Shown piece after piece: positions 1 through 62,272 of a stretch of DNA of 64,000 bases (positions within the stretch are counted from its first letter, which is position 1; each line of letters begins with the position of its first letter). The DNA comes from Phorcus lineatus. Taxonomy: Eukaryota > Mollusca > Gastropoda > Trochida > Trochidae. Position numbers and translations under genes: made by a program. Location of the stretch: positions 14,066,924-14,130,923 of the forward strand of contig OV121097.1 in assembly GCA_921293015.1 (NCBI GenBank), written 5' to 3'. Below the pieces are notes generated by a model. It did not search any database, had not been told where the DNA came from, and was given only the letters and a program-made list of their open reading frames with translations.

Positions 1-1619
1 TTTTGGCCAAACTGAATATATTCAAAATATTTTTTTCATAAACAGAACGATGATCATGTAAAGTAACCAAAATGAAATCTAACATCATTAGAAATACAAA
101 ATTTCAACTCATTTCTTATTAATACTACAAGAAGATTATAAACGGAGTTTGTTGACTTTGAGTTCATTAATAAACTTTGTTTACCTTCACAAGATTTTTT
201 AACACAAACCAGGGTACAGAGTTGAGTAAAAAAAAAATTTTCTACTTAACCTGAGGTAACATTTTGATCAGTATGTAAAGGTTGTTTTTATATGTACAAG
301 CGTCTATCTAGGCTTGTTAGAAGCGTTGAATTGAGAGAATTGTTCTGTGTTGTTACCGCTAATAAGTTAATCAACTGATCAACTAAGTCAAAGAAGATGA
401 GTAGGTAAGATGGAAGAATTACATTTCAGTGTAATATTGTTGTTTTACAGCTGAAAGTTTACTTAACTAATCGTTTTGTTATCTTAAATATGCTACTTAA
501 CATGTCCCCCCCGAAAAAAGGCATTAGGTTTCTAAATACACATCAACGAAGTTTTATTGATATTCTAACAATTATCGAGTTATTTTGTGCTGACATACAT
601 GTTCTAATATGTTATCTCCAGAGGACTAAATTATTCATGTTGTTATTGCTTATTCAAATTTGATAGTGAAACTGTCATTTCTTATACAAATTTGATAGTG
701 AAACTGTCATTGCTTATTGTAAAATATTATCATATTTCATTGTATGAGAATATGCAATATGTGTAATCATATAATGGTTAGTAAGTATAATACTATGATT
801 TAAACAGTATTTCATTTCCATAAAACATGTGCTACACAAAATTCAGAATATATAATTATACAAAAAGTAAAAAGGATGAACAAATGCCTATATACATTCT
901 TTTCCTGAAACAAACATAAAATGATTAAGATATCAAGTACATTGATGGAAATATACATTTGCAATTATTCTTACTAAACTCAAATTCATATTAAGCTTTG
1001 GTACAAATTTTAGGAAAGAGCTTTAAAAATCGTTTGATATTATTTATGAAATGATAAACAGATATTATTAGGAATTCGTCAACACTCTGTGACAAAGATT
1101 GGTCGGCGTTAAGATAGATTTAGTATATTGATATGATTTACTAGGGAATATTCAAGCCCTAAGTTGGCACTATTGGAAAATATCTAAAATGTTGGTGAAC
1201 CAGACTTTGGTAATAGGAACTTTTAATTTCCAAGTCGCCAAGTAGATAAACAAGATAATAATTTGTTAAAACAACATGGGCTTATGGTGTCTCCATATGT
1301 TGTTTTAGCCTAACACTACCTACGGGGGGCAAATTGGTCGGCTCCCAACACGCCGACGCTTCATTTCGCAGACACTTTAACGGTTCAGTAAACAAGTTAA
1401 TTAGCTCCTGTGACCCCTACTAGAATAGTGGAATAGACCCAATATATATATTTATTCGATAACAACATGAGTGGTATAGATATAATTATTTTATTTTATT
1501 AACAACTTTGGCGTTGTTAGCACTAGTCTTTTGCTTTTCTAGTTGATGACATCGATATATTTGTTTGATAATTAGTTAGCACTAGTTAGCACTGATTTTT
1601 AGAATCTCAAGTTCAGAGT

Positions 1620-2697
1620 TTATCCCAGCTTCACCAAGTGGGAGACGGCATCAAGAAACTCGAGCGGTGTCTTCTCTCCGTTGCGTAGGGCTTCCTTCAG
1701 TCTGGCGATTCTGTTGTCAATGTCTCTGTATACTCTCTTCCGGCTTGGGGGGGCAGCTCCTCTGTCTGCCATCTCATTCCTCCTGATGACCTCGACAAAC
1801 CTGAAGATGTTTGGGTGGCGATGTGGAAGGGTTCTGTTGAGCCTGTTGTGGAAACCTTCCAAGTTGTTGTTGGTCCTTGGTCCCTGGTTGTCATGGTGGT
1901 TCACCAGCGATCGAGGGAAGCGAGCGTCGTAGTCTACCAATGTCGCTGTGATGTAATCTTTGAAGTCCTCGATGCGGTTGGTGGCTGGGGCGGCGTCCAT
2001 AACATCTATCCATGGTATCTTGAACTTCGTCCTGGGGAAGCAAGGCAAGGGCAGCTGCTCTCCTGACGAACTGCGTTACAGCTGGGGAGAGGACAAACAC
2101 CAAGGGATAAGACACAGAGTTCGAACGACAATGAATGATGTATACCTGATCCCAGAGATCAGGACACGCAGTAAAAGTTCCATCCATGTAGATGACGTCA
2201 GCGTTCTGCAAGGCCTGGAGCTGTTCCGTAGTAGAGAACACTAGAATCTTGTCTTCGTCACCATCAGAGAGAAGTAGGAACCGCCGGCCATCACTCGTCT
2301 CTGTCCACTTGTCTTCCAAGTTGACATCGCTGCGGCTTGCAGGTAACGCTGGAATTGTCTTGCGACGATGTCTGTAGAGAACGCTGCTGTTACTGGAGTA
2401 GGATGGGAAGATGGGGTGGTTCTCGTCGTCCTCGGCCGCTAGCTGCTCTTCGTACAGGGTCTGCATCGGCGTTGTCTCCTCACGGGCGTGGTTGTGCTCT
2501 GTCTGTGTCCTGATGAAGTCGCCGACTGTTGAGCATCTTCCTGTACAGGTCTTGGTGATGCATCTCCAGTGTGTGCAGGTCTGTCTGATCTTGTTCCGAG
2601 TGTTGACATATCCATCTAGAATGATCTGAGGGGCTCCTTTCTGCGACACAAGATACTCAACTCTCCGTAGTGCAGCCATAGTGATGGTGATGACCAT
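1620..2697 (-). pseudogene. FLYWCH zinc finger-MULE transposase, copy 1 (frameshifted, core deleted)
   Basis: The family cuts and pastes Mutator-like elements in the nucleus. Residues about 10-70 form a FLYWCH-type zinc finger: a YLVSQKG start, DGY, WRC, a second Cys group (CTGRC) and a final HNH. Residues about 165-225 are the start of a MULE domain with MDGTF (first catalytic Asp) and YPLVFVL. The region carrying the second Asp, the Cys/His stretch and the catalytic Glu is missing: sequence jumps to the C-terminal part of the domain (FVRRAAALALLP, then RTNNNLEGFH). One extra G near 2014 shifts the frame, so the C-terminus (1620-2048) is read in another phase and ends in a normal stop. Of two possible starts, Met7 has the better context (G at +4). 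FLYWCH-containing MULEs are known in animals as Phantom; that placement is inference. Confidence 0.8.
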
Positions 2698-2711
2698 GTT
2701 CTGTTTACCAT

Positions 2712-2719
2712 TTTATATA
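2712..2719 (-). promoter_or_regulatory. TATA box of transposase copy 1
   Basis: On the minus strand this reads TATATAAA and lies 14 bases before the first in-frame ATG. With usual TATA spacing, transcription would begin at or just inside that ATG, which favours Met7 as the working start. The same box is at 61143-61150 in copy 2. Confidence 0.45.
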
Positions 2720-3721
2720 CCTTGTGGGTTTTCAAACCTTTTGATAATCAATTAAAATCCGACAATAAATGAATGTAAACGCAGTGCTAAGAAGAGAGGA
2801 CAGATTATCACAAAGTTTTATATAAACACAACTTAATGTCATTGTGGACCAATATACTCTAATCCGACAATAACTGAATGTAAACTCAATGTCATGAAGC
2901 ATTTTCATTTTCATTAAATTTTGTACAAACATAATCTACCATGGTTATTGTTTCATAATTTGCTCGTTAAAGATTGAGCTTTGTTATAATCACATATGTC
3001 CAAACTTTTCAAAAATGAACCTGACCCAGGCTTCATCTACTCTAGTGGACCATTCTATTATGTCTGTGGGGTTGATGTTAATTGAGCCCTCATTAATTGT
3101 CGGCGAATTACTGCGTCAGCAATGAGTGTCTGGATCTTGTGACACAACCGGCAAATTGGTGCCCAATCATTCGTCCTCTGTCATGCCAAGCTGTCACATT
3201 AACACATTCAGTGTATTCAGTGCTGGATTGTAACGATGGAGAGTACATTAATTATAGAAGGTTTTTGGATGGATTATTCATTTCTTTGTATCAGGTACGT
3301 TTTTAAAAAATATATATTCTTAAAAAAGCAATTTATCACTAGTGTTGTTAAACTTGGATCTGTATTAGAATAACTTCATATCTTTGTTTGTTAAAAGTTT
3401 ATACCACCTTTTTTGAAAGAAACAAATATGTCTCTGTGAAATGTGGAGCCGCTTGGTTTCTCTCTATATATTGATCTGATTTTGTTATGTGGCTTAACCA
3501 ATGTGATTCAATCAGTTATTAAATGGGACTTTGAATAATTGTTTGAGTAGTGTTGAATCGTTCGTACTCGATAACAGATGAAACCGAGTCTGAAAGTGAA
3601 GTAAATGAACATCAAATCAAATTTTCTTCGTAGATGTGAAAAGAATAGAACAAAATTATCTAAAAACATGTTTGACTGACACAATTCATTATAAAATATG
3701 AATATTATTAACATGTTTTAG
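2720..3721. other. Non-coding interior of the MULE element
   Basis: This 1-kb stretch lies between the transposase promoter and the right terminal repeat. It is AT-rich with no credible coding region. It is nearly the same in copy 2, except that copy 2 keeps about 54 extra bases (around 61888-61942) that are absent here near 3467. Confidence 0.6.
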
Positions 3722-3821
3722 TATCACCCGACCCATCTCAAGATGGGACGTCCCAACTTGGAATCCCAAGTTGGGATGCGTCCCATCTTAAGATCGGGCA
3801 GATCCGCAGTTGGGATGATTC
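3722..3821. repeat. Right terminal inverted repeat with nested palindromes (copy 1)
   Basis: This 100-bp segment is built from short palindromes: CCCATCTCAAGATGGG, TCCCAAGTTGGGA and CCCATCTTAAGAT. Read as reverse complement it starts GAATCATCCCAACTGCGG and matches the left end of copy 2 (56192 on), which starts GTATCATCCCAACTTGGG. Copy 2 lacks about 32 bp of the palindrome cluster here, a loss between short GATG repeats. Confidence 0.7.
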
Positions 3822-3827
3822 ATTATT

Positions 3828-5235
3828 ACCCAAAAAACATACAGCAAATTTGGGTATCCTATTCTAAAAAGTTTCCAAGAAAAGTCCTTTTGAAGACACT
3901 GTCAAACCGAACACAGAATAAGGTAAAAAACTCCGATTCTTCTTTTCGAAATCCATCAAGTTATTGATAACCTGAAGACAGACACCAATTTTGAGTATTC
4001 TATCTTAAATAGTGTCTGAGAAAAATGTCTCCTGTGTAGATACCCTCGAAACGATTCCAAAAACACGGAACAAGGGAAATAACTTCCTATAGATTTATAG
4101 CGCGGTTCTTATTTTCCAACTTATCAAGGTATTGATACCATCGTAATAGGAGTTTTCAAGTACAGACATTTTTTATGACTGCGACCTCACGGGTGGGGAG
4201 TGTACTGTGTTATTCACGCAACGGCATTCGGTATAGGTTCTTGTTTTAGTATTACTTCGTGTATTTACAAAACAAATAACGCGAACGTGAAACATTCGCC
4301 ACAACGTAACTGTGATACAGCTTTCTATGTTACACCGGGTCGGGAAATAGGTTACCCGGCACACATGGTGAGTTTTAGCGTCTAATTTCAACCATGTATG
4401 GCAAACAGACTGAATGTGATCGCTTTTTATAATACTCCACTGAACAGGTAATGTAATTCCATCTGTTATTTATTCACGTGATAACATAAGATAGTTGTAA
4501 TTACTGATGACATGTGTCTTCTGTCAATTCATAATTAATATGTGTTGTGAATGAATCAATAATCGGAGACAGAATATATACATACTGGTAACCTGTTCTT
4601 ATTAAATACTTTCCGCAAATATGATGTTGGAATGTTTTTCAATTTAAATTGAAGGTTCTTTGTTGACTTGACTAAATACTTAACACATCATCTATTCATA
4701 ATTAAAATATGTTACGAATGAAAAGGTAGAGGTAGAATATATATATAGCTAACTTGTTTTGATTAAAATACACGCAGTTATTAGTGTTATTCGAATATAA
4801 ATTGAAGGTTCTTTGTTCACTTAACTAAATATATTACATCCCTATATGTTTGACTCAAGGTAAGTGCGCAAATTTCAATGTTGGAAAGTTATTGATTAAA
4901 ATACAAGCAGGGATGTTATTCGAATATAAATTGAAGGTTCTTTGTTCACTTAACTAAATATATTACATCCCTATATGTTTGATTCAAGGTAAGTGCGCAA
5001 ATTTCAATGTTGGAAAGTTATTCAAATTTAATTTGATATCTAAATACTTCATATTCCTGTCTGCTTGGGTCCACATACATATATACAGCTAATTACCCGA
5101 ATACCTGAAACGAGCCCTAAAATTCTTAATTACCTATCCGCGTGAGTCATGGTATGCACCCGAATATAGAACCCTAAAATCTTGACAATTCTAGGCCTCA
5201 CCTCTATTGTTCCACTCTGGGGTGTCTTTGTCATG
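3828..5235. other. AT-rich flank shared with copy 2
   Basis: No gene is visible. The sequence is almost identical to 62273-63680, so the two long blocks are alike beyond the apparent transposon end. It contains the 133-bp tandem duplication described separately. Confidence 0.6.
4760..5025. repeat. Tandem duplication, 133-bp unit, two copies
   Basis: The segment starting TGATTAAAATACACGCAG at 4760 recurs at 4893 with few changes, through GAAGGTTCTTTGTTCACT to TTCAATGTTGGAAAGTTAT. A more diverged third relative begins near 4640. Copy 2 has the same duplication near 63205-63475. Confidence 0.8.
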
Positions 5236-5716
5236 GAATGGAATGCTTCTATTATAGAATGGAATGCTTCTGTTATAGAATGGAATGCTTCTGTTATAGA
5301 ATGGAATGTTATAGAATGGAATGCTTCTGTTATAGAATGGAAACTTTTATTATAGAATGGAATGCTTCTGTTATAGAATGGAATGCTTCTGTTATAGAAT
5401 GGAATGCTTCTGTTATAGAATGGAATGCTTCTGTTATAGAATGGGATGCTTTTGTTATAGAATGGGATGCTTTTGTTATAGAATGGAATGCTTCTGTTAT
5501 AGAATGGAATGCTTTTGTTATAGAATGGAATGCTTCTGTTATAGAATGGAATGCTTCTGTTATAGAATGGAATGCTTCTGTTATAGAATGGAATGCTTTT
5601 GTTATAGAATGGAATGCTTTTGTTATAGAATGGAATGCTTCTGTTATAGAATGGAATGCTTCTGTTATAGAATGGAATGCTTATAGAATGAAAAGTCTTT
5701 GCTATAAAACGGAATG
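5236..5716. repeat. 21-bp minisatellite, about 21 units
   Basis: The unit is TATAGAATGGAATGCTTCTG plus T, repeated head to tail with C/T and A/G variants (TTCTG or TTTTG, GGAATG or GGGATG). The 21-bp period is a multiple of three and the unit has no stop in two frames, so long open frames appear by chance. The array adjoins the duplicated block; its other copy begins at 63680 with a different order of unit variants. Confidence 0.95.
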
Positions 5717-5750
5717 TCTTTATATATATATATATATGAATAAATAAATG

Positions 5751-5793
<43 letters not shown>
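5717..5793. repeat. (AT)n microsatellite
   Basis: Two runs of alternating A and T, separated by GAATAAATAAATGAAT, join the minisatellite to the diverged transposon fragment. Confidence 0.95.
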
Positions 5794-5799
<6 letters not shown>

Positions 5800-5801
5800 C
5801 A

Positions 5802-8692: not shown

Positions 8693-9442
8693 ATTTAGAA
8701 ATCATATAGTTTCGATATGATGAAAAACAAAAAAGTATACCACAAATCTATGAAAACTTGACTCTGACAAAAACATTTTCATACTCAGCCTTAAGTGAAT
8801 TGATTATTTTTCAGTTAATGCAATCTCTTACCTATTAAGATATTTCCTATCCGTTATTAGTACAATCATCCTCAGTTCAGTGATTCGCGCATTAACTATC
8901 CATGGACATAACACCTAAAAGCAACGCAGGGCAGGCACGTGAATGTGCGATATGCACGGACGTACTACCGATGTGACACTTTGTGCTACCTGTGTAATTT
9001 TCTTCAAGATGAGAAAGCTTTTTCTTATAGCTGAACTTCTTTCTGCCTGGTTTAAATTGCACAACCTTTTGTTTAAATTGTTTCTCCCGTGGGGTTTATT
9101 GCCTTTGCGTGAAGACCACGTATGTTGGAAGACTTTTCACTTCCAATGAGCTTTAGAGCTCCCTTCTTTCTTTTAATATTTTATGTTTCTGTTTTGTTCG
9201 AAGCATCTCTTAAGGTAGGATGCTTCTATCGGTACAAACTGTTTTTCTTTTTTTATTTGACCACAGAAATGTTTCATTTACTCATCTCATGTACCATGTG
9301 CGGAAGTTCTTTACTTCTAAACAACAGGCTTTGACATCTGTGGTTAGTTTTCACACCAAATATAAATGCCACTATAATCTTGATGTAATTAGACGATCAT
9401 TAGTGCGAAAATCGCTAAATCTAAAGATTTCGAAAACGAAAG
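8693..9442 (+). other. Probable 5' leader of the LINE at 9443
   Basis: Homology to the MULE family ends near 8692 and the LINE endonuclease frame opens at 9443. The sequence between has only short unconvincing frames and no recognisable ORF1 protein. It is probably the LINE 5' untranslated region, possibly with older flank; I cannot place the element start. Confidence 0.35.
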
Positions 9443-10423
9443 ATGACAGATAATCTCAAAATCGTTAGCCAAAACTGCAGGGGCTTGAAAAATATTATCA
9501 AGCGCAAAAAGGTATTTCGGCTGGTTCGTAAGAAAAAAGCAAATATTTATTGTCTACAAGATGTACATTTTGAATATAAAGATATACAACTGATAAAACA
9601 ACAATGGGGATATAGCGAATGTTACTTCAGTTGTTTCAAAGAAAATGCCCGAGGTACAGCTGTTCTCTTTAACAACAACTTTGACTTTAAAGTTTTAAAG
9701 CATAAGCATGATAAAGGTGGAAAGTATGTGGCATTAAAACTCCTCATAAACGAAATAACGTATTCAATCATTACTGGTTATGCACCAAATACCGATAGTC
9801 TAGCTTTCTTCGAACATATTATGGGGATAGTACAAGATTTCGATAGTGATAAAATATCCATTTGTGGAGATTGGAACATAGTACAAAACCAACATTTAGA
9901 TACGTATAATTACAAGAAAATAAATAATCCAAAGGCTAGAGATAAGGTACTTAAATTAATGGATACTTTTGATCTTAAAGATCCATGGCGTGAACAAAAT
10001 TATGACACAAAACGATATACCTGGCGGCAACCCACACCTCTAAAACAAGCGAGACTTGACTTTTTCCTCATATCACATGATATGATACCATCAGTTAAGA
10101 ATTGTGATATCAAACCAAGTATTGAATCTGATCATTCTATAATAGAATTAACATTAACGTATGCCGAAATTTCGAGTGGCAAGGGATTCTGGAAGTTTAA
10201 TAATTCATTGCTACGTGATAAAGAATATGTAGATATAGTAAAAGATACAATTAAATCTACCCTAAATCAGTATAAAGTAGATACAAACACGTACTCTATT
10301 GATGATCAGTTACTATGGGAAACACTACTTTTATTGATAAGAGGTAAAGCAATTTACTACACATCAACTAAAAAAAAGAAAATTATTGCGAAGGAAAAGA
10401 ACTACCACACTAAACTAAACTAA
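9443..10423 (+). pseudogene. LINE endonuclease domain (N-terminal ORF2)
   Basis: This open frame of 326 codons encodes an apurinic/apyrimidinic-type endonuclease that nicks genomic DNA to prime reverse transcription. Visible family motifs are SQNCRG (Asn11), CLQDVHF (residues 37-43), GYAPN, CGDWN and ESDHS. The residue normally Glu in the LQE(T/V)H motif is Asp40 here, so catalysis may be impaired. Just after residue 320 the frame stops in a run of four ACTAA units (about 10407-10430); beyond it the same protein continues in another frame (KPLEKEEFWNKI). Expansion of that short repeat is the likely cause of the break. Confidence 0.85.
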
Positions 10424-15884: not shown

Positions 15885-16210
15885 ATTTAGTTGATAGTAG
15901 ACTTGGTGACCCCGTTATGCCTAATAAGGGCCAAAGAGACCATGCACGTCTTAAAAAACTATTTTCATCTTCTTCTCCCCCAGAATCAAAAGGCATAGAA
16001 AGCTTAAACTTTGTGTACGGACACCTTAGCTGTTGTCTATAGATTAGAATCCCCATCAGTTAAAGAGTATAGACAACTGCTAAGGTGTCCGTAAACAAAG
16101 TTTCAGGTTTCTAGGGCATTTGCGCCTTGAGAAGAAGATGGAAATAGGTTTTTCGGGTGTGCTCCCTGTTGCACTTATGAGGGGTAATAGGGTCACCAAG
16201 TCTATCGATT
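15885..16210. repeat. Imperfect inverted repeat, arms about 145 bp
   Basis: The left arm (about 15893-16040) and the right arm (about 16065-16207) are imperfect reverse complements. They are anchored by ACTTTGTGTACGGACACCTT on the left and AAGGTGTCCGTAAACAAAGT on the right. The spacer is about 25 bp. A 3' tail with repeated ACGG units (16296-16325) follows. This looks like a miniature inverted-repeat element or two head-to-head copies of a short interspersed repeat. Confidence 0.65.
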
Positions 16211-22842: not shown

Positions 22843-25800
22843 GTTGGTTTTGTTGACCGAGTCAGTGTATAATTTCAATAATTTCAAGTTTTTGTTTGTT
22901 GCTTCCCGTTATTCCCAATACAAAGTCATAATATTCTAAGCTAAGATATATCGATATCCAGTTGATAGTAAACAATGAATTGTTAACCTTCCTTCATATA
23001 ATATACCTTGACAAAATGACTTTGAATGTTTAAGTATTTTCTTCACAGGAGACAACATAATGCTGGGCAAACCAAGTAAACAATCCAGTACCTATAATGA
23101 TAACAGTGATTATGACAGTACAAGAGCGAACGATGGTTCAATCAGCACAGTGAGCTGGACTCGATCTGAACAAAGTCCATATTGGCAGGGGGACCTGCAG
23201 GGATATTACAGAATACTCAACATCACTGTCACCCGTGGCTCTTGTAAGTTTAACTTGACATTTTGGATCAATTTTTTAAAATACATAAGGTTATGTGATG
23301 TGTTTTCACTACACAATGGATGTGCACTAAAGACGTTTGAGACTTCTGATCAGAAATAAATGATTTATATTGTAAAACGCAATAAAGTACATGTATAAAC
23401 GCTTTAAAGGATACTTTTTACAACAGATTCAAAAGGAAATCAATGTCAAACTTTTTGAAAAATATTTGAACTTGGCTAAACACTAGAAATCTGTTAAGTA
23501 TCTCTGATGAGTAATTAATAGTAGTAACATGTACATTAACGTTTCCATCCATGTGTTATAATCGTTTATATAAACTAATAGATTTGATTTCATCATGGTT
23601 TTATAGCGCTTTTCATACGGGGTGCCTACATCGGGGTCTCTGTCCTTGACGTGTCTAATCCAGACAGTGACGTCCATAAGTGTGGACAATGGCCAGACAT
23701 GTTCAGTGACTCCTCAGATTCCCTGACCTATATGTGCAGCTTCCAACAACCCGTGAGGTTTGTCAGAATTTGGCGTGAAGATGCCTACTACCATCTGGCT
23801 ATTGCCGAAGTAATTGTTGAAGCACCCTCTGAACAGGTGCCTAGAGGTAAACATGTTTTTGTTTGGCAAAACCAGCTATGTAGATTCAAATTTTTAAAAA
23901 AACGTCAACGTTGAAATTCTTAATTTTGTTATCAAAAAGCTAATAAATCTACAAAGACTAATCTTCATTTGGTGAACAATTAAACAAGATTTTAAATTTG
24001 ATTTTCTTCCAAACTTTCCAGTTTATAAAAGCTCCATAGCTTAACAAACAGTGTTACAATGATTAATCCCCCACTTAACGAGCCATTCCACTACCTTAAC
24101 TCATGCCGTTCATTAATTCATACACATACAGGGCATTTCTAACATCCTTCATTCTTCAACTTAAAGTCATTATCTAATCTTGGCAAGGCAAACAATGAAG
24201 TTTCAGTGATGGTCAAAAGCGCTTTAGGACATAGGCCTACCAAATTAATCACAAAAATTGTGGAAAATGAAGAGTATAGTACGTTTTTGGTTACACGTCA
24301 TTATTTTATACTTACCGTAGACAAATACCTATGCCTATTTATTAGCTATATAATAATAACGACTCCGTCCCACTGTTATATTTATAGAATTGAGACTCGT
24401 GAGAGTTACCTGCCCACGGGTGATACGTCACTTCCGAAAGCTCATTAGCAATTCTAGTCGCCTCACCCGGTAATATCTGCATAGCGTGGATGAGGCCGGA
24501 CTCATGAAGGTGATTGTCTACGGTAAGTATAAAATAATTACGTTTAACCAAAAACATACTATTATTTACAACTTACCTCCAACAATCACCTATGCCGAAT
24601 GCCACTGTTGGCCGGCGGGTCGGATACAGACATCCGTGGGGCAGCCCTGAATTGTCCAGTCTAGTGGCGACCAATGAATGCGACTAATTACCTATGCGGT
24701 AGAGGCCCCCCTCAACCTCATCGTCAAATCTCAATGGTCGACGGCCACATAAGCATTAAAATGAACAACACAACAACGAGTAGGTTGAAACAATATATTT
24801 TATTCTTGATAAAACACACAAGAAGGATTGGAAGATGGCAACCCCGACCAGACGGGTCGTGTCTTACCCCGACTGGGAACGCCCCCTTCCGGGGCCTCCC
24901 CCGCCAGACGTGCGCTGCTGTGTGAACACTTTTACTCCTAGTCTCGCAACTCCCTCCATATCATCCAAAGATAAGTCGCGTAAGTAATGGTTGGCGAATA
25001 CAAAGCCCGACTTCCAAAAGCAGCTGGCCATGATGTCCGCTCACGCTAGGTTACTATGCAGAGCCATAGTCGCCGATATGGCCCTGATTTCATTCGGATT
25101 GGTCCGCGTGGGTGGGGGGAGATCCGCCGCCTTGTAGGCGTCCAAAACCGCTGACCTAAGGTAAACCCCAAGTTGCCTCTTGTCAATCTCCTTCCAACTC
25201 GTCTGTGAGTGAGGAAGGAAGAGCCTGCGTCCCAATTGTTTTGTCAGATCCGAGGACAACCTTATAAGGTGTCTGCAATCCCTCTCTCGAACATGTATAT
25301 TTAGAGCAACCTGCAGAGACCTGGGTCGGAGTCTCCCCCTCTTTGTATAAACTTGGCACAATGTCAGGAACCCCGGGCGGCGCTGCCACTGCTGCAGAGG
25401 CAGAGGCTCCCGCTGCTCCTGCTCTACATCGAGAACTGCACATCGTGTCTGTGCAGGTATTGGACGATGGGTTTGGTCACCCGATTGAAGAGCCACGGGG
25501 CTGTTGGGATTCCAAATGGCAGGACGTTCCACTGGAAGTGTCGCCCTGCCAAGACAAACCGGAGGGATCTGCGGTCCGCGGGGCAGATTGGAATGTGCAG
25601 ATACGCATCCTGAAGGTTCAGAGAAACCCTGCAATCCGACGGTTGCAGTAACTGCATGACAGATCGCACGGTCAACAGTCGAAAATATGGCGTCCGCTCA
25701 AGGAACGAGCGGTTGAACCACTTCGTGTCGTGTATCAGCCGCCAATTTTTCAGCTCTCTTTTTGGTCTTATGAAAACTGGGGAGTAATATCCGGGTTTCA

Positions 25801-28800
25801 AATTCTCGAGTGAAAGTTCGACCACCGCTCCTTTGGAGACTAGAATCTCTACCTGTTCGAGAGTGAGTGCAAGCCGTTCCGGCTCCAACGAGTGCTCTAC
25901 TAGCGAACAGGTCAAACGGGGGCGGAAAAAAACGCGAATATGAAACCCCGCTCCAGAATCTGGCATACATATTCGTCAAGGCACAATTGCCTACAGTTGG
26001 CCAAAAAATGAGAAAGCTGGCCTCCCACTGGCCCGTCTAAATTGCTCACAATCAGCAGGGGCAGGTGTAGAGGCTCCCAGAAGTCACTGCTTCTTGGGAG
26101 TTCCAGCGTACCCGCGCCCTCCGGCATGCTGGAACTTCTTGGGCGTCCTTTTGGAAGAAGGGCCAGCGTTGTAGTCGCTGCGACCCTTACCTGACCGGCC
26201 CTCCCCCACGAAAGGACACACCACCGAACTAGAAAGCGACTGGAGACGCCGTGGTGGTACCCTTGCGCTTGGTGAGCAGTTGGTGAGCTCCTGCTGGTGC
26301 GTCTCCTGTGCCCATCGAAGAGGGGAGGAGAGGAGCTTGGAGCATTTCTGAGGCGTGTGCACATCTCCATCGGGAGATTAGTGCGTGCTAAAAACTCATC
26401 GCGCCTCAGATTGATCTGAGCCAAATTCCCGGCCACAGAGACAAACCCCTGATAGAGTGCTTTGGCGCCTGACTCCATCCCAGCCTCATTAGCAAAGGCG
26501 ACCATGGCTTGGCATGCGTGTGCCAAGGAGTTGGATATGCCAAGGATACTCCTGGCCTCCTTGTCCAGATGGGACAGATGGGCATGCGACACAGAGTGTG
26601 CCACAGCTGGGGACGCTACCCTCCGGACGTCGTCGTACAAGGCAAGAGGGTTGAGGCCAATAGGGGGTTTTGCCACCGGGAGTGCGGCTCTCTGGCGATC
26701 CTAAATCACCAGAGGGGGAAGTATACGTTCTGGAGACTACCTACGCTGGAGCGGTGAAGAGCGGAAAGCTAGCAGACGACGCTCGGGAGTGTAACATCGT
26801 GATCAGGAACCTGCAAGAAGAGCCTAAGGAACTACAGGACAGCGCAATCACTAAAGGTAAGTCCTCGGACTCGTCAGAGATGAACTTTAACTCAAAGATG
26901 TGTAAGCTGTGAGAAAAGAGAATCGCGGAACTGGGAAATACCCTGGTGTAGTCATAGCAACTCTTAGTTCATCTGAACAAGTGTTTACGAACAAATCTAA
27001 TCTGAAAAAAGCAAACATTGTGATGAGGTGTACATCGAGAATGACATAGAAGCCGAAAAATTGGAAGCTAACTTTAGAACACTTCTCCGAGAAATGTGCA
27101 AGCACAAAACGTACACCGAAAGGGGAGGTAAAGTGATGAAAGTCAACCCCAGGCATCATAAACATTAGAGGTGTGCCCGTCTAGGATTCTGGAACGTGGG
27201 TGGATTTTCAATTAAAGACAATGCTAATTCATATTTTAGAAAATCTGTTATTGAATCATGTGATTATGATGTGTTTGATGTGTGTGAAACTTCTTAAATC
27301 TTAATGATGTTTTAACTTGTGAAGGTTATCAATGGTACGGTAATAACAGATATACCCATGGGAAGAGGGGGGTCTGGCGGTGTTGGTGTTTTTGTAAAAT
27401 ATGACTTATTGCTTTAATGTAAATGTGTTAGATAATAATGTCGATGGTATTTTATGGCTTACATTTTCATCTAAAACCTCTGATTTTGCATTCTGTATCT
27501 GTGTGTGCTACCTGCCCCCTAGGAAGGTCGATCCGACCTTGTAGCTCAGAGGAGTTCTTCAACACTTTGCAAGAGCATGTGTGTCAATATCAAAATATAG
27601 GTCGGCTGTACTTATGTTGTGACTTCAACGCAAGATGTTCAAGCAGCACGGACTTCATCGCGGGGGTGGATCACGTGACCCCACGTGGTGTAATCGACTA
27701 CGCTGACAACGGTCACGGTAACCTTTTGATTGACTTCAAACAAACATACAAACATGTTGAACGGCAGAGTTGGTACGGAAGACTTTACTCATGTGTCATA
27801 TCGAGGCAAATCAGTTGTTGACTACGTATTAGTACCATATGAACAGGTGGCATTTTGTGAGGATTTTAACGTTCGGCTCGTTTCTGATGTTCAGTTATCT
27901 TTCAATCTGCAAGCATGTGAAAAGACACCGGGCCACAGTTTACTAGAATGGACTATTGATTTAGACTATATGAGTGAGAAACTGAACTTGTGTGAGAGTG
28001 ATGGAAAAAGTGTGAACATTCAATATGTAACGTCGGATATTCCTGAATCTTTCCTTAACGACACAAATGCTGCAGTTAATGTGGACAGGGCAGTGGGACT
28101 AATAGAGTCAGCCTCAGTAAGTGGGGATATAAACATAACCTATGGTCACTTCACTCAGCTACTGGAGTCTGAAATGAAAGACAAGTTGCCAAGCAAACTT
28201 ATCTCAAACGGACCATTTTGTCTGGGCAAAGCGCTGTAAAACCAAACCTTACTGGAATGAACTTAGTTCAAGTTTTTCCTAAGTAACAGCGAAAGAGAGG
28301 GCTTGGGTTAGATTTAAAGGATCAAAGCAGGTAAAGGAAAGATTCAAACGTGGTTTCTGTTATGAAAGAAAGAATTTTAACAAAACTCTTAGGCAAGCTA
28401 AGCGGCGGTTCCAGCAGTTGAAAAGGACAATCTTTCGGAGATGTTACAGAACTCATCACGTGATTTCTGGAAGGAACTCGGAAAGCTCGGAACAGCTAAC
28501 GACCGGAAGACAGACATACCCATGGCAGTAGTGAATAGTGACGATAGTGTGAGCACCGATACAGATTCCATCCCGCATGGATAGGAGACTGACTACAGAC
28601 GCTTGTATCAAGCACAGAATCGCAGCTCAGGATTCGATGTGGGACACCTCAAGTATATCAAGGAAGAAATGAGCAATATTCCATTCAATACTTCTTATAA
28701 CTCTGTTTTTCTTACAATCTATGAAGTAAGAAATGCGATTGAGCGAGCTAACTTGAACAAATCAGCTGGTTTAGATAATATCCCATCTTCTGTGTTGAAG

Positions 28801-31800
28801 GACGAAACTTGCATCAAACTTCTGTACATGATGATTAACTTTAGCTTCAACAATGGTTGAATCCCAGCGATAAGGAGCCGTTGAACAATAGAACCTATCC
28901 TAAAGTCAAGCAAGCACACCGACCCGAGAAACACCTATAGTTCAGGCCGATAACAGTTTTATCTATCCCTTCCAAGATTTACGGCGATGTTATCATTCAT
29001 AGACTTTTTACATTTTTAGAGTGTGAAAATTTATTAGTGGACGAACAAAATGGATTCCAAAAGGGACGATCGTGCCTCGACAATTTGTATAAACTTCATA
29101 GTATTGTTAATAACAGGAAAAATACCAAAAGAGAACTTGTTAATGTTTTATTGATTTTAGAAAATCTTTTGATTCAATCAACCGAGACTTATTATGGTTC
29201 AAATTGGCGGAATATGGAGTCACAAGAAATGTATTAGCAGCAATACTATCCCGCTATGACAACGTTACGTGTTCAGTCAAAGTTAACCAGTGTTTCCAGT
29301 AGACTCAGGTGTTAAGCAAGGCTGTGTGCCTTCACCGACCTTATTCTCCATCTACATCAACGTACTAACTAATGAACTGAAATTAGCCAACTGTGGTATA
29401 CAAGTAGATGATCAGCTGTAGCTGTACTATTATATGCTGATGACATTGTCCTGTTATCACCTGATGCACAGGGATTGCAAAACACTTTTAGATATTTTAT
29501 ATGCTTTGACTTCGAAGTGGAGACTGAAGATAAACCGGGAGAAAACTAAAGTTTTACTCTTCAGACCGAAAAATGCACTTACACGTCATCAAGTTTTGCG
29601 GGGGGGACGAGGATGAGATAGACTAAACTGAAAGTTATAGATACCTGGGGATATGGCTAAATGAACACAGTGATATGAGACTAGCTGTGAAAGAACTCAT
29701 CAAAGCAGCTTCCAGGGCACTAGGATTTCCTCTCCATAAGTACAACACATGCACTACAGCGTCCTCACTCGACTTTTCGAGAGCCTTGTACGGTTTTATC
29801 CTATTGTTCAGGAATATTCGGGAGTTAACATGTACATAGATTTGTATACTACATAGTGCAGAGCAGCGAGAGCGTTCCTGTGGGTCTCACGGAACACACA
29901 CAACATCGCTGTCAGAGGGGACATGGGCGGGCCTGACAACACAAGTAGTATCTTGAGGTAGCTCGTTTGTGGTGTCGGATAGAGAGACAACCACAAGGAT
30001 CACTCACAGCTTCGGTACAGGAAGGGAAAGCGGAGGAAGTGACTCGTGGTAACTCCCTCAACTTCTTCCTCCGCTCGTTCCGTCGTCGGAGGGCTCGGTG
30101 GGAGCCGGCTTCAGTGCCTCAGTGTCAGCAAGTGGGAGCAGTTAGGGTTAGACCCGTCTGTTTGTCGGATATTGCGTCAGGGCTTCCGCATTCCGGTCTC
30201 GTCTTCTCCTACTCTTACTTGTGCTCCAAGGGAGCGTCCCTTGTCACGGGACCGGCTCCAACTAACGTTGGAACAGTTGGAGATATTAATCTCCAAGGGG
30301 GAGGAACAGGAGGTCATGACCCCGCTTCTAACGCCGGGGTTTTACTCCCCAGTGTTTGTCATACCGGAAAGGAACTAAAAATCACGGTGGCTTATTCACG
30401 ACTTCAAGGTATTCAACAGCTCCTACCTCGTTTGGCCACCATATTTTCGACTCTTTACCCTTCCCTCTGTAATGCGATCTCTGGAGCGCTCCGACTGCAT
30501 GGTGTCTCTCGATCTCCAGAATGCGTACCTGAACATCATTCTGGACGGGAGACATTTTCAATCGTGCGTTCTCCCTTTCGGGATTTCATCCGCCCCCTGG
30601 CTTTTCACTCCAGTGAGCCTATCGTCTAATTTTTACATGAATGCGACATTCAGTGTCTAATGTATGTGGACAATGGGCTCGCTAACGACCGTTCTACCGT
30701 CATTCTCGAGGTACAGCTCAGGTTCACGATAGACCTGTTCCGTCGTCTGGGATGATTAGTGAAGAGAAGTCGGACCCTCAGGTCTTCTGCCTTCACGCTT
30801 GGTTTGTATTAAGAGAGGGTTAAGGAGCAGTGGTTACTGGGGGCCTTACATTCTCTATTCCGGCACTGGGGTTTGAACCGGGAGAGATAGATTTCTCTCC
30901 GTGTCCGGTTAGGGCGTTGAGGGTTTACGTGCAGCGTACACGCAGACTGAAGGATGGCAGGCGTCGTCTGTTCTTGCCTCAGTCGCCGAGGAGCACGAAG
31001 ATCTGGACAAGCGAGTGTTGGGGGTATACCTTAGGTCAGCAGTCATCCACGCATACTAGGTGCCACGCCCGTCACGTTCCAACCCGCGTGCGATCCGAGC
31101 AGTCTTAGCCACGATGGCTTACCACTGTAACATTGCAGTCTCGGACGCCATGGCCATGGCGGGGTGTTTTGGCTTCCTTCGGATGTCTTCACCAATCATT
31201 ACCTACGAGATCTCTCCACAGCAGATCTCGAAGGCATCTCTAAGCTGGGTCCGCAGGTTTTCGCTCAGGCGAAGGTGGTCCCCCCGACGAGACCGAGAAG
31301 GGGACAGTCCTCTTAGGAGGAGGGTCTCGTGTGTCTTTCGATGCTCCTTGCAAAAAACTTCTGTTCGCATCGTTTGTTCTTTGCCGGTTGTTCTTATTTA
31401 CACTTCCACCCCCATAGGGGTCGGGGACAGTGTGTTAATCAGGAGTTGAGTGGCTTGGTTGTCTCTTCGATCCGCTTAGCGGTAGAGATAGTGTCTCCCG
31501 GGCTGTACCTTGTCCTCACCACTGGGTGGAGGACTCGTACTCGTAGGTTAGCTTAAACTCAGGGCTTGTCGCTGGTCTCGTCTCTCCCATATATCTACTG
31601 ACCCACCTCCGTGCAGTGGGATTCTAGGCATAATAGGTCTAGTCAACAGATATGTATTTAAATAATAGTACGTTTTTGATTAAACGTAATGATTTATACT
31701 TACCCGTTGACTAGACCTACGCACTAGTCCAGCCCATCCCCCTCTTGGTCTGTCTTGCCTTTATGGGCCTGTTCAGAGAGTGAAGGCTTCTGGGAGTGAC

Positions 31801-32460
31801 GTCACGAGACTTACCGCCCTTGGAGGGGGATTTTACGCATCCGTTACTCCACTGTTTGAAGTTTCGTCTGTGATAATAAGGTTGAAATAAAGCATGCCTA
31901 GAGGAGTCAGGCATAGTAAGTCTAGTCAACAGGTAAGTATAAATAATTACGTTAAATCAAAAACGTACTAAAATATATGATGAGAGCAAAATATTATTTG
32001 GGTTATGAGCATACCTGCCTTAGCCTATAGAATTTTTTATCAGCAATTATCCTTGGAAAATGTTTTAAAAGAAAATATGTAATTATTGGAACCAAAGTCT
32101 TCATGCAATTATGGAATTTTTCATAACTTCGATGTTTTTAAAAACGTAAATTATTAGTATAAAGTTCTGGTCAATTTACGTTCAACATTGTTTTTATTAG
32201 CTTGTAACTATGTCACCGAGATGTCAAAAAAGCTGACTACAGCAGGAAAATCTGTCACAGTTGCCTTGTCAACTGAATGTGGAACTCTCTGCCACAAGGA
32301 TCAGACTTGCCATGCCTTCAGCTTCCGTAAAGGGGGACAACTCAACTGCCTCTTGGGGATCCCTGGAAACTTGGACTCTGACAGCGACTGGCGTACCTAC
32401 ATCATCAAGGACTGCTACACCCCAACAACCTGTCCTGGCGTCAACGATACACGCAATTAA
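22791..32460 (+). CDS. Secreted lectin-like protein, F5/8-type-C plus PAN/apple domains (four exons)
   Basis: Exons 22791-22842, 23049-23243, 23607-23846 and 32201-32460 join with every intron in phase 1 and canonical GT/AG borders. They give 747 bases, or 248 residues plus stop. Residues 1-17 are a hydrophobic signal peptide. Residues about 20-160 resemble a discoidin/fucolectin-type domain: LGKPSKQSSTY near the start, YWQGDLQGYYRI in the middle, RFVRIW and AIAEVIVEA at the end. Residues about 163-240 are a Cys-rich PAN/apple-like domain with CGTLCHKDQTCHAFSF and NCLLG. Proteins of this type are secreted and bind carbohydrate or protein; fucose binding is not shown, since the usual His/Arg ligand motif is not obvious. 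The third intron is 8,354 bp and full of retrotransposons. There is no frame break in the joined reading frame. I see no clear AATAAA soon after the stop. Confidence 0.8.
23049..23243 (+). CDS. Exon 2: N-terminal half of the F5/8-type-C-like domain
   Basis: The acceptor CTTCACAG precedes it and GTAAGT follows. It carries GKPSKQSSTY, the ANDG turn and SPYWQGDLQGYYRI, the typical first half of a discoidin/fucolectin fold. It ends in phase 1. Confidence 0.85.
23607..23846 (+). CDS. Exon 3: C-terminal half of the F5/8-type-C-like domain
   Basis: The acceptor is GTTTTATAG and the donor GTAAAC. The exon encodes RGAYIGVSVLD, CGQWPD, MCSFQQPVRFVRIW and HLAIAEVIVEA, the closing strands of the domain with two Cys. 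It ends in phase 1 after a short linker (SEQVPR). Confidence 0.85.
23847..24275 (+). other. Intron 3, unique 5' part
   Basis: AT-rich intron sequence lies between the exon 3 donor and the terminal repeat of the first DIRS element. I see no gene or regulatory site in it. Confidence 0.5.
24276..24335 (-). repeat. DIRS 3' inverted terminal repeat (first copy)
   Basis: It begins ATAGTACGTTTTTGGTTACA and ends ACTTACCGTAGACAAATACC plus ATGCC. On the minus strand this includes GGTAAGTAT, a strong splice-donor-like word. It is the mirror of 31910-31970 at the far side of the intron cluster. Confidence 0.75.
24509..24590 (-). repeat. 82-bp internal palindrome of the first DIRS copy (ICR-like)
   Basis: The arms GGTGATTGTCTACGGTAAGT and ACTTACCTCCAACAATCACC flank a central AT-rich loop that contains the terminal-repeat core (GTTTAACCAAAAACATACT). 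It lies about 175 bp inside the 3' terminal repeat. In DIRS elements an internal complementary region in this position is thought to guide circle formation. Confidence 0.7.
24864..25330 (-). pseudogene. DIRS tyrosine recombinase, C-terminal half
   Basis: The enzyme inserts the circular DNA copy without an integrase. On the minus strand the frame shows RRLFLPHSQTSWKEIDKRQL, then PNEIRAISATMALHSNLA, a stop near 25036, and the continuation ADIMASCFWKS...FANHYLRDLSL. The final Tyr lies in the expected HYLRDL setting. The frame ends in a Gly/Arg-rich tail at 24866. The N-terminal half is absent and one stop interrupts it, so it is inactive. Confidence 0.75.
25424..25966 (-). pseudogene. DIRS reverse transcriptase fragment
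   Basis: The minus-strand frame encodes LTLEQVEILVSKGAV, GYYSPVFIRPKRELKNWRLI, RVSLNLQDAYLHIPI (motif A region; the usual SxDLKDAYFHIPI has Asn where the catalytic Asp is common), LRFVLAGRHFQWNVLPFGI (motif B) and then ends. The YxDD-type active-site block does not follow, consistent with an internal deletion running into the recombinase. Confidence 0.75.
25912..26676 (-). pseudogene. DIRS gag-like region
   Basis: The 254-codon frame starts MAKPPIGLNPLALYDDVRR and shows a helical region with HLSHLDKEARSILGISNSL. Around 26084-26362 the better gag-like sequence (basic, with GGRGYAGTPKK) is in a different frame, so two compensating shifts are likely. The end (GGQLSHFLANCRQL, DEYVCQILERGF) matches the start of the second DIRS copy near 30100 and leads into the reverse transcriptase. 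Confidence 0.6.
26760..29990 (+). pseudogene. LINE with ORF1, endonuclease and reverse transcriptase remnants
   Basis: It starts with an ORF1-like segment (ECNIVIRNLQEEPKELQDS, 26790-26850), followed by a degraded stretch. The endonuclease region opens with GFWNVGGFS (27188) and continues FRKSVIESCDYDVFDVCET, GYQWYGNNRY and CYLPPR (27505). Reverse-transcriptase motifs are NLNKSAGLDNIPSSVLK (28750), DEQNGFQKGRSCLDNLY (29040), SGVKQGCVPSPTLFSIYIN (29308), YADDIVLLSPDAQGLQN (29432) and a YRYLGIW segment (29637). The C-terminal part (RAARAFLWVS, GDMGG, 29860-29935) runs up to the second DIRS copy. Many stops and shifts make it dead. The clade is uncertain. Confidence 0.8.
30046..30660 (+). pseudogene. 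DIRS gag end and reverse transcriptase (second copy)
   Basis: The first frame (30046-30378) reads GGLGGSRLQCLSVSKWEQLG, LTLEQLEILISKGEE and LTPGFYSPVFVIPERN. The next block (30472-30660) reads SLERSDCMVSLDLQNAYLNI (here Asp is kept in motif A), GRHFQSCVLPFGISSAPWLF. A following MYVDNG near 30661 may be a remnant of the YxDD active site. Stops and shifts interrupt it. Confidence 0.75.
30830..31330 (+). pseudogene. DIRS tyrosine recombinase (second copy)
   Basis: Blocks FSPCPVRALRVYVQRTRRLK, GRRRLFLPQSP and then, in another frame, RSNPRAIRAVLATMAYHCNI and GCFGFLRMSSPIITYEIS are collinear with the recombinase of the first copy and extend the C-terminal half. The RAIRA block holds one of the conserved Arg residues and the Tyr in TYEIS is a candidate nucleophile. 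Frameshifts near 31060-31100 break it. Confidence 0.7.
31636..31717 (+). repeat. 82-bp internal palindrome of the second DIRS copy (ICR-like)
   Basis: The arms GGTCTAGTCAAC and GTTGACTAGACC enclose the loop with ATAGTACGTTTTTGATTAAA. It has exactly the length of 24509-24590 and the same loop core, but the stem sequence is different and still self-complementary. Confidence 0.75.
31910..31970 (+). repeat. DIRS 3' inverted terminal repeat (second copy)
   Basis: It reads GGCATAGTAAGTCTAGTCAA, then CAGGTAAGTAT (31930-31940), then ends AATCAAAAACGTACTA. The first part repeats one stem of the internal palindrome. The reverse complement of its end is the start of the repeat at 24276. Confidence 0.75.
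31971..32200 (+). other. Intron 3, unique 3' part
   Basis: AT-rich intron end with a pyrimidine-rich TTTTTATTAG acceptor. Nothing else is visible. Confidence 0.5.
32201..32460 (+). CDS. Exon 4: PAN/apple-like domain and stop
   Basis: The acceptor TTTTTATTAG ends at 32200. The base left over from exon 3 plus CT gives an Ala codon, followed by CNYVTEM, and the frame stays open to TAA at 32458-32460. Cys spacing (CGTLCHKDQTCHAFSF, NCLLG, KDCYTPTTC) fits a PAN/apple module. It lies 8.35 kb from exon 3, so gene prediction may easily miss it or call it a separate gene. Confidence 0.75.
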
Positions 32461-43050: not shown

Positions 43051-43764
43051 CACGAAAACTAGAATGCAAATACTGCTTTGATATGATTGGTTACCATAAT
43101 CAATTTTTGAGTGATTATTTCGCGCACGATTACAAATTCCATTCGCTGAAATTACTGTTTTCGTCGCGTTACAGACAACAGCAAAATGAATTTTAAATTA
43201 TTTCCATACAGACATTAAGGATACCGTATTTTTTAAGAAGATAAATCCATTCTGTTGTATTTTCTTTTGTCGAAGTAGTTTATTTTTTAATCACTACATT
43301 TAATTTCAATTCTTATTGTAACGCGAGGTAATATTAATAGTGATTTGTCAAGTGAACAGATGGGATCGACTTACGTTATTCTTCAACTTTACAAACCCCT
43401 CCCCTTACCTCCCTCTCACATTTCTAAACAATGTATGCAACCATGATAAATTATAAATCTGCCTTGATCGTTCTTTCAATCAGAACACATCTTGCGTGAG
43501 GTAGCTGAGTAAACTTAGCTTGATTACGTTCTCTCTAGTCGTTTCCACTACATCAGAGCTAAGACGCACCCCTATAGACGGCAGTGGAGGAAATCCTTTG
43601 TCGCACTTTCGCGCATCTGTTACGACTTTCGCGCACGAAAAAACTACATCAACGCTTTCTTTACACTAATACCTTAAAGTTTGCACCTTTTTTGTAATAA
43701 AAAAATTCAGAGAAAAGTATTTATTAGCAGTCAAACAACTCAGTCGATCTCTGGCGATCGGTCG

Positions 43765-43786: not shown

Positions 43787-45422
43787 CTATGACACATCGG
43801 GGATTCCCTCCCCAAAATAGTGACACACGTGCGATGGCTCCGATGCTTGTTTACAATTTGTTTCCCTTGTTATTTAGTTTAGTTTTCATCGGTGCAAACA
43901 TTCTCAGCCAATAAACGCAGAGGTATGGCGAGATTTCAATCCTAAATTGACTGACAACCCCTGCTCATTTCAAAGGAAAAACAGGTGAGTTTTCAATGTT
44001 CTCCAGGTCACTTCTATGTAATAGATCACTGTATATTATCATTTTGTATAATAGCTAAATATTTATTTTAATAGTATTCAAGCGTGAATTTGTATCACAA
44101 TTAAATTCATGAATTATGTAACAAGCTAATAAGGTTTTTATTCTCACAAAAAATATGATTTTCTTGTTTATCGAACTGCCTCAAATATTGTTATGGTAAA
44201 GTTTATTATTAGTGTCAAGCAATTCCATCTGAAATATCCCAACAAATTTGTTTTGTTTTTATGAAAAATATTTTAATTCTTGTAATTTTTATAATGGTCT
44301 TTACATTCAAATAAACTTTAATTAACGTGCTAGAGATTTGTTTGTTTTGAAATAAACAAATCTTCCTTTTATGCACACTTTAGTAACGTATTTGGCTAGG
44401 AAGATATTATCAGATATTGTCATGGAACAATGTCCAGTTCGAAAGACATATGAGATATCTTATCCAAGACCAGATACAACATATGTAAGAAGGGCAAGTA
44501 TTTATTTATGTAAAATGATCAATTTGATGTACATCATGTCAATATTCATATTTACACAAAGCTGAAGAGACATATAAGAGGTAACAATTACAAGAGCTTG
44601 TGTAAAATCATACATAATTGTCATGTAAAAACTATATTTTACTAGGCCAAGCTTTAAGAGTGAATAATAATTTATTTGGAATATCTACCATATCCAATAA
44701 CATTCGTGACAATACAAATGTCAGGGACTTCCTAAACCAAGTGCCAAGAATGCCCATGGAGTACTTGAGCATTGTTCATCTTTTAAATCAAATTCCATAT
44801 CATACTTAAATTTGACTTCAGAAATAGTAGTTTAATCTTGTTCATTCTATCTGCAATTTAAGATGGTTAAAAAATTCCTCTAAATTTGTAATAAGAATGA
44901 CAAAACAACTCACTAATGTCGTGATGTTTGACAAAACATTAATATCATTTATTATAAAAAAAAAGAAAAAAAGCTTGTTTGCCAGACTTTCTTTGCTATC
45001 AATGACTGAAAGATTTTGTTTCAAGGCTAAAAATCTCGTTAATTTATCAACCTCATCAATTATGTTTAAAATTTACAATCTATATTACTATTTACAGAAA
45101 CGGTAAAAGGACTCATAAAGTGATCTATTACATAGAACTGGCCTGGACAGCATTGAAAACTCGCCAGTATTTTGGGGAGGGAATCCCCGATGTGTCATTG
45201 GTCACGTGATTCAAAGTGGCGGCGACCATCGCGAGAGATCGACTGAGTTGTTTTACTGCTTATAAATACTTATCTCTGATTTTTTTTATTTTAAAAAAGG
45301 TGCGGACATAGAGATATAAGTGTAAAGAAAGCATTGATATAGTTTTTTCGTGCGTGAAAGTCGTAACAGATGCGCGAAAGTGCGACAAAGGATTTCCTCC
45401 ACTGTCGTCTATAGAGGTGATT

Positions 45423-45449
45423 CATAGCCCCGCTGCTAGCGGGGCTATG
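45423..45449. repeat. GC-rich perfect hairpin, 12-bp stem
   Basis: CATAGCCCCGCT, loop GCT, then AGCGGGGCTATG. It lies just outside the inner part of the foldback, in a segment with no partner in the left arm. Confidence 0.85.
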
Positions 45450-50674: not shown

Positions 50675-50887
50675 CACAGGCCCTCGGATCATTAAAAAAA
50701 ATTGTAAATTGAAATTTCAATTTTTTTACAGCACCCCCTAAAGCGAATTGTACCTCTGTTGATAGTATATGGACTGATAACAGAGGTACAATTAGATTCC
50801 GTGGGTGCTCTAAAAAAATATGTTAAAATTTAAAAAAAAATATTAAAATTTAATAAAAACAACAGTTTACTGGTCCGAGGGCCTGTG
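50675..50887. mobile_element. 213-bp palindromic miniature element
   Basis: The ends CACAGGCCCTCGGA and TCCGAGGGCCTGTG are exact reverse complements. Inside, GTACCTCTGTT and AACAGAGGTACAATT, and AGCACCCCC and GGGTGCTCT, continue the symmetry, so most of the element can fold back. It has no coding capacity. Target duplication is unclear. Confidence 0.75.
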
Positions 50888-58353: not shown

Positions 58354-60035
58354 ATATCACTGATAGGCAGCAGACGTGATCAAATGTTTATGTTTATTGT
58401 TATTGTATTGTTATTCGATGAAAGTTTTTTGGCCAAACTGAATATATTCAAAATATTTTTTTCATAAACAGAACGATGATCATGTAAAGTAACCAAAATG
58501 AAATCTAACATCATTAGAAATACAAAATTTCAACTCATTTCTTATTAATACTACAAGAAGATTATAAACGGAGTTTGTTGACTTTGAGTTCATTAATAAA
58601 CTTTGTTTACCTTCACAAGATTTTTTAACACAAACCAGGGTACAGAGTTGAGTAAAAAAATTTTTTTTCTACTTAACCTGAGGTAACATTTTGATCAGTA
58701 TGTAAAGGTTGTTTTTATATGTACAAGCGTCTATCTAGGCTTGTTAGAAGCGTTGAATTGAGAGAATTGTTCTGTGTTGTTACCGCTAATAAGTTAATCA
58801 ACTGATCAACTAAGTCAAAGAAGATGAGTAGGTAAGATGGAAGAATTACATTTCAGTGTAATATTGTTGTTTTACAGCTGAAAGTTTACTTAACTAATCG
58901 TTTTGTTATCTTAAATATGCTACTTAACATGTCCCCCCCGAAAAAAGGCATTAGGTTTCTAAATACACATCAACGAAGTTTTATTGATATTCTAACAATT
59001 ATCGAGTTATTTTGTGCTGACATACATGTTCTAATATGTTATCTCCAGAGGACTAAATTATTCATGTTGTTATTGCTTATTCAAATTTGATAGTGAAACT
59101 GTCATTTCTTATACAAATTTGATAGTGAAACTGTCATTGCTTATTGTAAAATATTATCATATTTCATTGTATGATAATATGCAATATGTGTAATCATATA
59201 ATGGTTAGTAAGTATAATACTATGATTTAAACAGTATTTCATTTCCATAAAACATGTGCTACACAAAATTCAGAATATATAATTATACAAAAAGTAAAAA
59301 GGATGAACAAATGCCTATATACATTCTTTTCCTGAAACAAACATAAAATGATTAAGATATCAAGTACATTGATGGAAATATACATTTGCAATTATTCTTA
59401 CTAAACTCAAATTCATATTAAGCTTTGGTACAAAGCTTTAAAAATCGTTTGATATCATTTATGAAATGATAAACAGATATTATTAGGAATTCGTCAACAC
59501 TCTGTGACAAAGATTTGTCGGCGTTAAGATAGATTTAGTATATTGATATGATTTACTAGGGAATATTCAAGCCCTAAGTTGGCACTATTGGAAAATATCT
59601 AAAATGTTGGTGAACCAGACTTTGGTAATAGGAACTTTTAAATTCCAAGTCGCCAAGTAGATAAACAAGATAATAATTTGTTAAAACAACATGGGCTTAT
59701 GGTGTCTCCATATGTTGTTTTAGCCTAACACTACCTACGGGGGGCAAATTGGTCGGCTCCCAACACGCCGACGCTTCATTTCGCAGACATCTCAACGGTT
59801 CAGTAAACAAGTTAATTAGCTCCTGTGACCCCTACTAGAATAGTGGAATAGACGCAATATATATATTTATTCGATAACAACATGAGTGGTATAGATATAA
59901 TTATTTTATTTTATTAACAACTTTGGCGTTGTTAGCACTAGTCTTTTGCTCTTCTAGTTGATGACATCGATATATTTGTTTGATAATTAGTTAGCACTAG
60001 TTAGCACTAATTTTTAGAATCTCAAGTTCAGAGTG

Positions 60036-61128: not shown

Positions 61129-61142
61129 GTTCTGTTTACCAT

Positions 61143-61150
61143 TTTATATA
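61143..61150 (-). promoter_or_regulatory. TATA box of transposase copy 2
   Basis: TATATAAA on the minus strand, 14 bases before the first ATG, identical in context to copy 1. Confidence 0.45.
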
Positions 61151-62198: not shown

Positions 62199-62266
62199 GT
62201 ATCACCCGACCCATCTCAAGATGCGTCCCATCTTAAGATCGGGCGGATCCGCAGTTGGGATGATAC
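62199..62266. repeat. Right terminal inverted repeat of MULE copy 2
   Basis: It is shorter than in copy 1 (about 32 bp of palindromes lost). It ends GGGATGATAC and is followed by ATTATT. Confidence 0.75.
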
Positions 62267-62272
62267 ATTATT

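Follow-up and report, generated by a model that had tools for sequence, protein, structure and literature searches.

Two 82-bp palindromes, located at positions 24509–24590 and 31636–31717 of a 64-kb stretch of contig OV121097.1 from Phorcus lineatus (hereafter the window, meaning the whole stretch of DNA that was analysed), are very likely internal complementary regions (ICRs) that belong to two distinct DIRS1-like retrotransposons, both truncated, each ICR standing in a template relationship with the ends of its own element. The right half of each palindrome matches the right terminus of its own element in reverse complement, and this match is specific to that element. The initial annotation of this DNA had described two DIRS copies with palindromes whose stems changed together while still pairing, and had put forward either selection on the structure or re-templating of each stem from the element's own ends. 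The DIRS naming fits, but the palindrome had not been recognised as a standard ICR, and the reverse transcriptase (RT) fragments of the two elements share only 53–56% identity in protein (70.7% in DNA, over 205 bp). The elements therefore belong to two diverged families rather than being two copies of one, and the names copy 1 (palindrome at 24509) and copy 2 (palindrome at 31636) are used below for convenience.

Two palindromes with different stems and a common core

Both palindromes were confirmed at these coordinates in the window. Centred Watson-Crick pairs number 25 of 41 in copy 1 and 23 of 41 in copy 2, against a window mean of 11.3 (standard deviation 3.0). Palindromes are not rare per se, as among the 63,918 start positions in the window 3 outscore copy 1 and 23 outscore copy 2, and some of the higher-scoring palindromes sit in AT-rich repeats. 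Two that outscore the DIRS pair, at 16014–16095 and 50729–50810 (29 and 30 of 41 centred pairs, respectively), show no match to the DIRS core described below, and are possibly short inverted-repeat transposons.

The outer stems pair fully, at 9 of 9 positions in copy 1 and 12 of 12 in copy 2, whereas exchanging the arms between the copies leaves pairing at just 3 of the first 12. The earlier observation that the stems differ and yet both pair is therefore correct. Both palindromes also fold better than all of their shuffled versions: the DNA folds give z-scores of −5.95 to −7.44 and the RNA folds −7.16 and −6.75, and in each of the four DNA folds and each RNA fold none of 200 shuffles equalled the real sequence. 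The distance from the palindrome to the terminal arm, counted inward, is 177 nt in copy 1 and 195 nt in copy 2.

The core common to the two palindromes is 91.5% identical over 47 bp, and a pattern derived from it (allowing at most 3 mismatches) finds 4 matches in the window, compared to none in any of 100 shuffles. It had been described as a shared loop; it is indeed shared, but is not wholly unpaired, as in the predicted DNA folds of the element strand it closes into a 7-bp hairpin of its own. Inside the core lies a small inverted repeat, TACGTTT-N6-AAACGTA, found in both families in the right extension of the element and in its ICR copy. The four sites are 24280–24306 (copy 1 terminus, 5 of 7 arm pairs), 24532–24558 (copy 1 ICR, 6 of 7), 31669–31695 (copy 2 ICR, 7 of 7) and 31941–31967 (copy 2 terminus, 6 of 7). 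This repeat is a candidate recombinase-binding site.

Match of each right half to its own terminus

In a self-comparison of the window, positions 24508–24562 of copy 1 are reverse-complementary to 24276–24330 at 50 of 55 nt (BLAST E 1e-15), and positions 31666–31720 of copy 2 to 31916–31970 at 51 of 55 nt (BLAST E 2e-17). The initial annotation had proposed comparing each stem with the terminal repeats of its own element, and for the right terminus the outcome is clear: with the self-match excluded, the own terminus is the top match of each right half in the whole window. The runners-up are the sites of the other copy (35–38 of 55), and the best matches outside the family reach 31 and 30 of 55. 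Aligned with gaps, the whole 55-nt stretch is identical across the copies at 44–46 of 58 positions. Both the shared core and the match of each palindrome to its own element end are beyond chance.

The difference between own and other copy is largest towards the stem. Over the first 15 nt, ungapped, the own terminus matches at 13 and 14 positions and the other copy at 3, a comparison that is out of the core register. In the core register, the 14 nt preceding the shared GTAAGTAT match the own terminus at 12 of 14 positions in both copies, and match across copies at 3–5 of 14. A one-base shift raises this cross-copy score to 6–8, and the stems of the two families may therefore be distantly related. 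Within each copy, the outer stem is common to the left arm, the right arm and the right terminus, and is nearly the same at these three visible sites, with 2 of 9 stem positions differing at the terminus of copy 1 and 1 of 12 at that of copy 2.

In copy 1, all 15 of the bases left unpaired in the predicted fold agree with the element's own terminus, as do 34 of the 39 paired ones; in copy 2 the counts are 11 of 12 unpaired and 37 of 40 paired bases. The match is thus no worse at unpaired than at paired positions, and selection on the hairpin alone would not require it. In copy 1, the two arms disagree at 8 compared positions; the terminus has the base of the right arm at 7 of these, never that of the left arm, and at 1 it matches neither. 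The left arm of copy 2, together with 10 nt outside the palindrome, matches the right inverted terminal repeat (ITR) directly (31626–31657 against 31909–31940, 88%), which is the expectation if the left ITR is an inverted copy of the right one.

The palindromes as internal complementary regions

In both copies the right ICR is reverse-complementary to the right terminus, including its extension. Both carry an RT of the Ty3/DIRS type, recognised in copy 1 through the Pfam family RVT_1 and Ty3 RT in the PDB, and in copy 2 through its similarity to copy 1. The terminal repeats may also be inverted rather than split direct ones: the left ITR was not found in the window, but its proxy, the left ICR arm, resembles the right ITR in the way expected of an inverted repeat. 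The palindrome is thus a feature already known, the standard ICR of DIRS1-like elements, a verdict that covers the feature and not the two families. The title of the original Cappello 1985 paper mentions an "internal circle junction sequence".

The published descriptions agree with this anatomy. DIRS1 is described as having two ICRs, one for each end and complementary to it, which overlap in the 3 bp of the circular junction, with a right extension and a divergent part of the ITR that is constrained by the ICR (PMC3266345). The same ICR anatomy is reported in Xenopus (PMC9210276), and an ICR is shown in a DIRS1 figure legend (PMC2685390). The order at the 3' end, with RT, recombinase-like region, ICR, and right ITR plus extension, is that of DIRS-1 of Dictyostelium and of the mollusc elements AcaDIRS and LgDIRS (PMC3266345). 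As in these, the right ICR is complementary to the right end, and a short word is present in the right ITR and in both ICR halves. The left ICR of copy 2, at ∼41 nt, is within the range of 39–46 nt published for molluscs (PMC3266345). Ngaro and PAT elements likewise possess an RT and a tyrosine recombinase, but carry split direct repeats (PMC3266345, PMC2685390, PMC9210276), while the ICR here is complementary to the right end. I met no description in the literature of stem differences between DIRS families, although no search was aimed at exactly that point.

In the published model, the element RNA would lack the outermost ends, and the missing terminal sequences would be rebuilt with the ICR as template; this model is stated to be not fully proven (PMC5633606). 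The complementary DNA (cDNA) would then close into a circle, which the tyrosine recombinase would insert. The right half of each palindrome is a reverse-complement copy of the right terminus, and the left half, we infer, is one of the left terminus. Since each terminal repeat is the other one inverted, the point where they join must be nearly palindromic, and since the palindrome copies the ends, the stem of each family is tied to the ends of that family. The stems would therefore have changed together because these sites are copied from one another, and not because base pairing was selected. Templating between each palindrome and its element's own end, as initially suggested, is supported by the 50/55 and 51/55 matches of the right halves, bases unpaired in the fold included, but in the published model it is the ICR that templates the ends (PMC5633606).

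Several observations weigh against identifying the palindromes as ICRs. Only two elements were compared, from two families. The 4 arm-differing substitutions of copy 2 split 2:2 between the arms, and a further 2-nt indel favours the right one, so copy 2 adds little to the arm-difference test. The right extension, estimated at ∼23–25 nt with the left ITR deduced from the left ICR, is shorter than the 46–49 nt of five mollusc elements, although 24–28 nt are given for elements of Dictyostelium, lizard and fish; the right ICR measures 55–62 nt here, against 67–88 nt in the five mollusc elements listed (PMC3266345). Unlike the described elements, both copies are truncated. Self-comparison of the 64-kb window and scans with the left halves revealed no left terminus for either copy, the scans rising above background only at the own right ends and at copy 1's own palindrome. 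The recombinase-like pieces gave no Pfam match (24870–25040, 31060–31449 and 31131–31313 scanned). Finally, the ATT trinucleotide expected at the ends cannot be made out clearly in the two copies, whose right ends read CTATA and CTAAA; AAT occurs near the ICR centre. The unclear trinucleotide suggests decay or uncertainty in the position of the ends, and as both copies are decayed, some of the differences are probably post-insertion mutations.

The rival explanation, in which selection for a hairpin (in RNA or single-stranded cDNA) maintains the palindrome and the stem changes are compensatory mutations, does account for the strong folds in DNA and RNA, for the perfectly paired outer stems and for the small inner hairpin added by the core. 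It does not, however, predict that the same words occur at the right termini, nor the agreement of the unpaired bases with them, and in the two sequences the stem changes are also present at each copy's terminus. Covariation cannot be established from one sequence of each of two families, and neither can selection. I therefore reject structural selection as the main cause, because the fold-unpaired bases match the terminus as well as the paired ones do; it is not needed to explain the data, and I regard it as improbable. Still far less credible is the notion that two unrelated palindromic insertions, for example miniature inverted-repeat transposable elements, landed in similar places. Other palindromes of similar size do exist in the window (16014 and 50729), but the two studied here have the 47-bp core in common, with its 4 matches in the window absent from every shuffle. 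They also occupy the same place relative to the RT, the recombinase-like pieces and the right end, and each matches its own terminus. Unrelated insertions, which the initial annotation had named as a way for its proposal to fail, were thus rejected on account of the shared core.

A different proposal refines the ICR identification rather than replacing it. The outer stem may be a homology word that is free in sequence, the requirement being that both ITRs and both ICRs agree for the template jumps of the cDNA. This is a tentative idea, which I consider less probable than not. It is consistent with the stem being shared by both arms and the right terminus of each copy while matching across copies at only 3–5 of 14 positions in the core register, and with the adjoining core being, unlike the stem, 91.5% alike between families. 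A word, 10 nt or longer, that both ITRs and both ICRs have in common has been suggested as possibly acting in circle formation (PMC3266345). On the other hand, the 6–8 cross-family matches obtained with a one-base shift suggest that the stems may share a distant origin and be under partial constraint, stem and terminus differ (by 2 bases in 9 in copy 1 and by 1 in 12 in copy 2), and the left ITR was not found in the window. A fuller version, in which the free word serves the ITR-to-ICR template switch and the conserved TACGTTT-N6-AAACGTA is a recombinase-binding site, is slightly more doubtful again. If true, the homology word and the recombinase site would separate the part of the DIRS end that drifts in concert from the part that is held by a protein.

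In the DIRS palindromes, a signal of compensatory change can thus appear without selection on structure, since the stems follow the ends, and DIRS ICRs should be masked when genomes are screened for hairpins that covary.

The two elements and their surroundings

Copy 1 lies on the minus strand and ends at about 24276. Its right terminus (outer right ITR and right extension, 24276–24330), defined by the 50/55 reverse-complement match, is followed by the ICR (24509–24590, with the right ICR at 24508–24562 and the left ICR at about 24561–24596), a C-terminal fragment resembling a tyrosine recombinase (24867–25040; 50% identical to copy 2 over 48 amino acids, E 4.7e-15) and an RT fragment (25424–25975; Pfam RVT_1 E 6.3e-10, Ty3-type RT in the PDB E 9.4e-7 and 3e-6). 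An upstream open reading frame (ORF; 25912–26700), in which no domain was found, overlaps the RT frame. Copy 2 is on the plus strand, with RT fragments in two frames (30043–30660; 53–56% amino acid identity to copy 1, RVT_1 E 0.0013, below the cut-off), tyrosine-recombinase-like fragments (30913–31313; 50–70% amino acid identity to the copy 1 pieces over 20–48 amino acids), the ICR (31636–31717, left ICR about 31626–31666, right ICR 31666–31720) and the right terminus (outer right ITR and right extension, 31916–31970, from the 51/55 match), the element ending at about 31970.

The RT and recombinase-like pieces lie upstream of each ICR in the expected DIRS order. The tyrosine recombinase label of the fragments in both copies is presumed from their position and from motifs of the DIRS recombinase. 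RNase H and methyltransferase gave no Pfam match in those pieces and frames of the two copies that were scanned; there is little space between the RT and recombinase-like blocks in both copies, and this part has probably been deleted in each. Both copies are truncated, and both seem to have lost internal sequence as well.

The DIRS pieces, 24276–26700 and 29949–31970, stand head to head, with the RT remains of another element between them. These remains (approximate limits 26700–29960, plus strand) include an RVT_1 match below the Pfam cut-off (E 5.1e-6 on 28941–29237), and the rest of the window contains nothing that matches the stretch at E 1e-3. It is read as a degraded non-LTR retrotransposon, where "non-LTR" is my assumption from its motifs. 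Directly downstream of copy 2, positions 32158–32460 resemble a PAN domain (E 3.1e-4, just under the Pfam cut-off), and the DIRS pieces may sit in an intron of a host gene.

No relative of the copy 1 RT turned up in viral contigs (10 pattern stretches, none confirmed), in prokaryotic genome contigs (62 stretches, none confirmed) or in plasmid or phage collections, as is expected of collections that hold viruses, prokaryotes and plasmids. The terminal pattern had no match in viral contigs, and Rfam none in the window. A 19-base core pattern matched 7 stretches in genome contigs, all in named bacterial records; about 4 matches are expected in 257 billion bases, counting both strands and assuming even base composition, and the 7 stretches are taken as chance.

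Elsewhere in the window, an ORF at 9425–10423 with an endonuclease/exonuclease/phosphatase domain is likely a non-LTR retrotransposon. A 208-nt inverted repeat (43551–43758 and 45228–45435, 88% complementary, 1469 nt apart) is possibly a DNA transposon. Positions 1–5800 recur at 58427–64000, in nine blocks of 241–300 nt that are 98–100% identical and spaced by 58,415–58,478; either a large segment was duplicated recently or the assembly has duplicated it. The duplicated stretch carries an ORF, whose copy at 60112–61143 has a FLYWCH domain, and a 21-bp minisatellite array (5229–5682 and 63677–64000).

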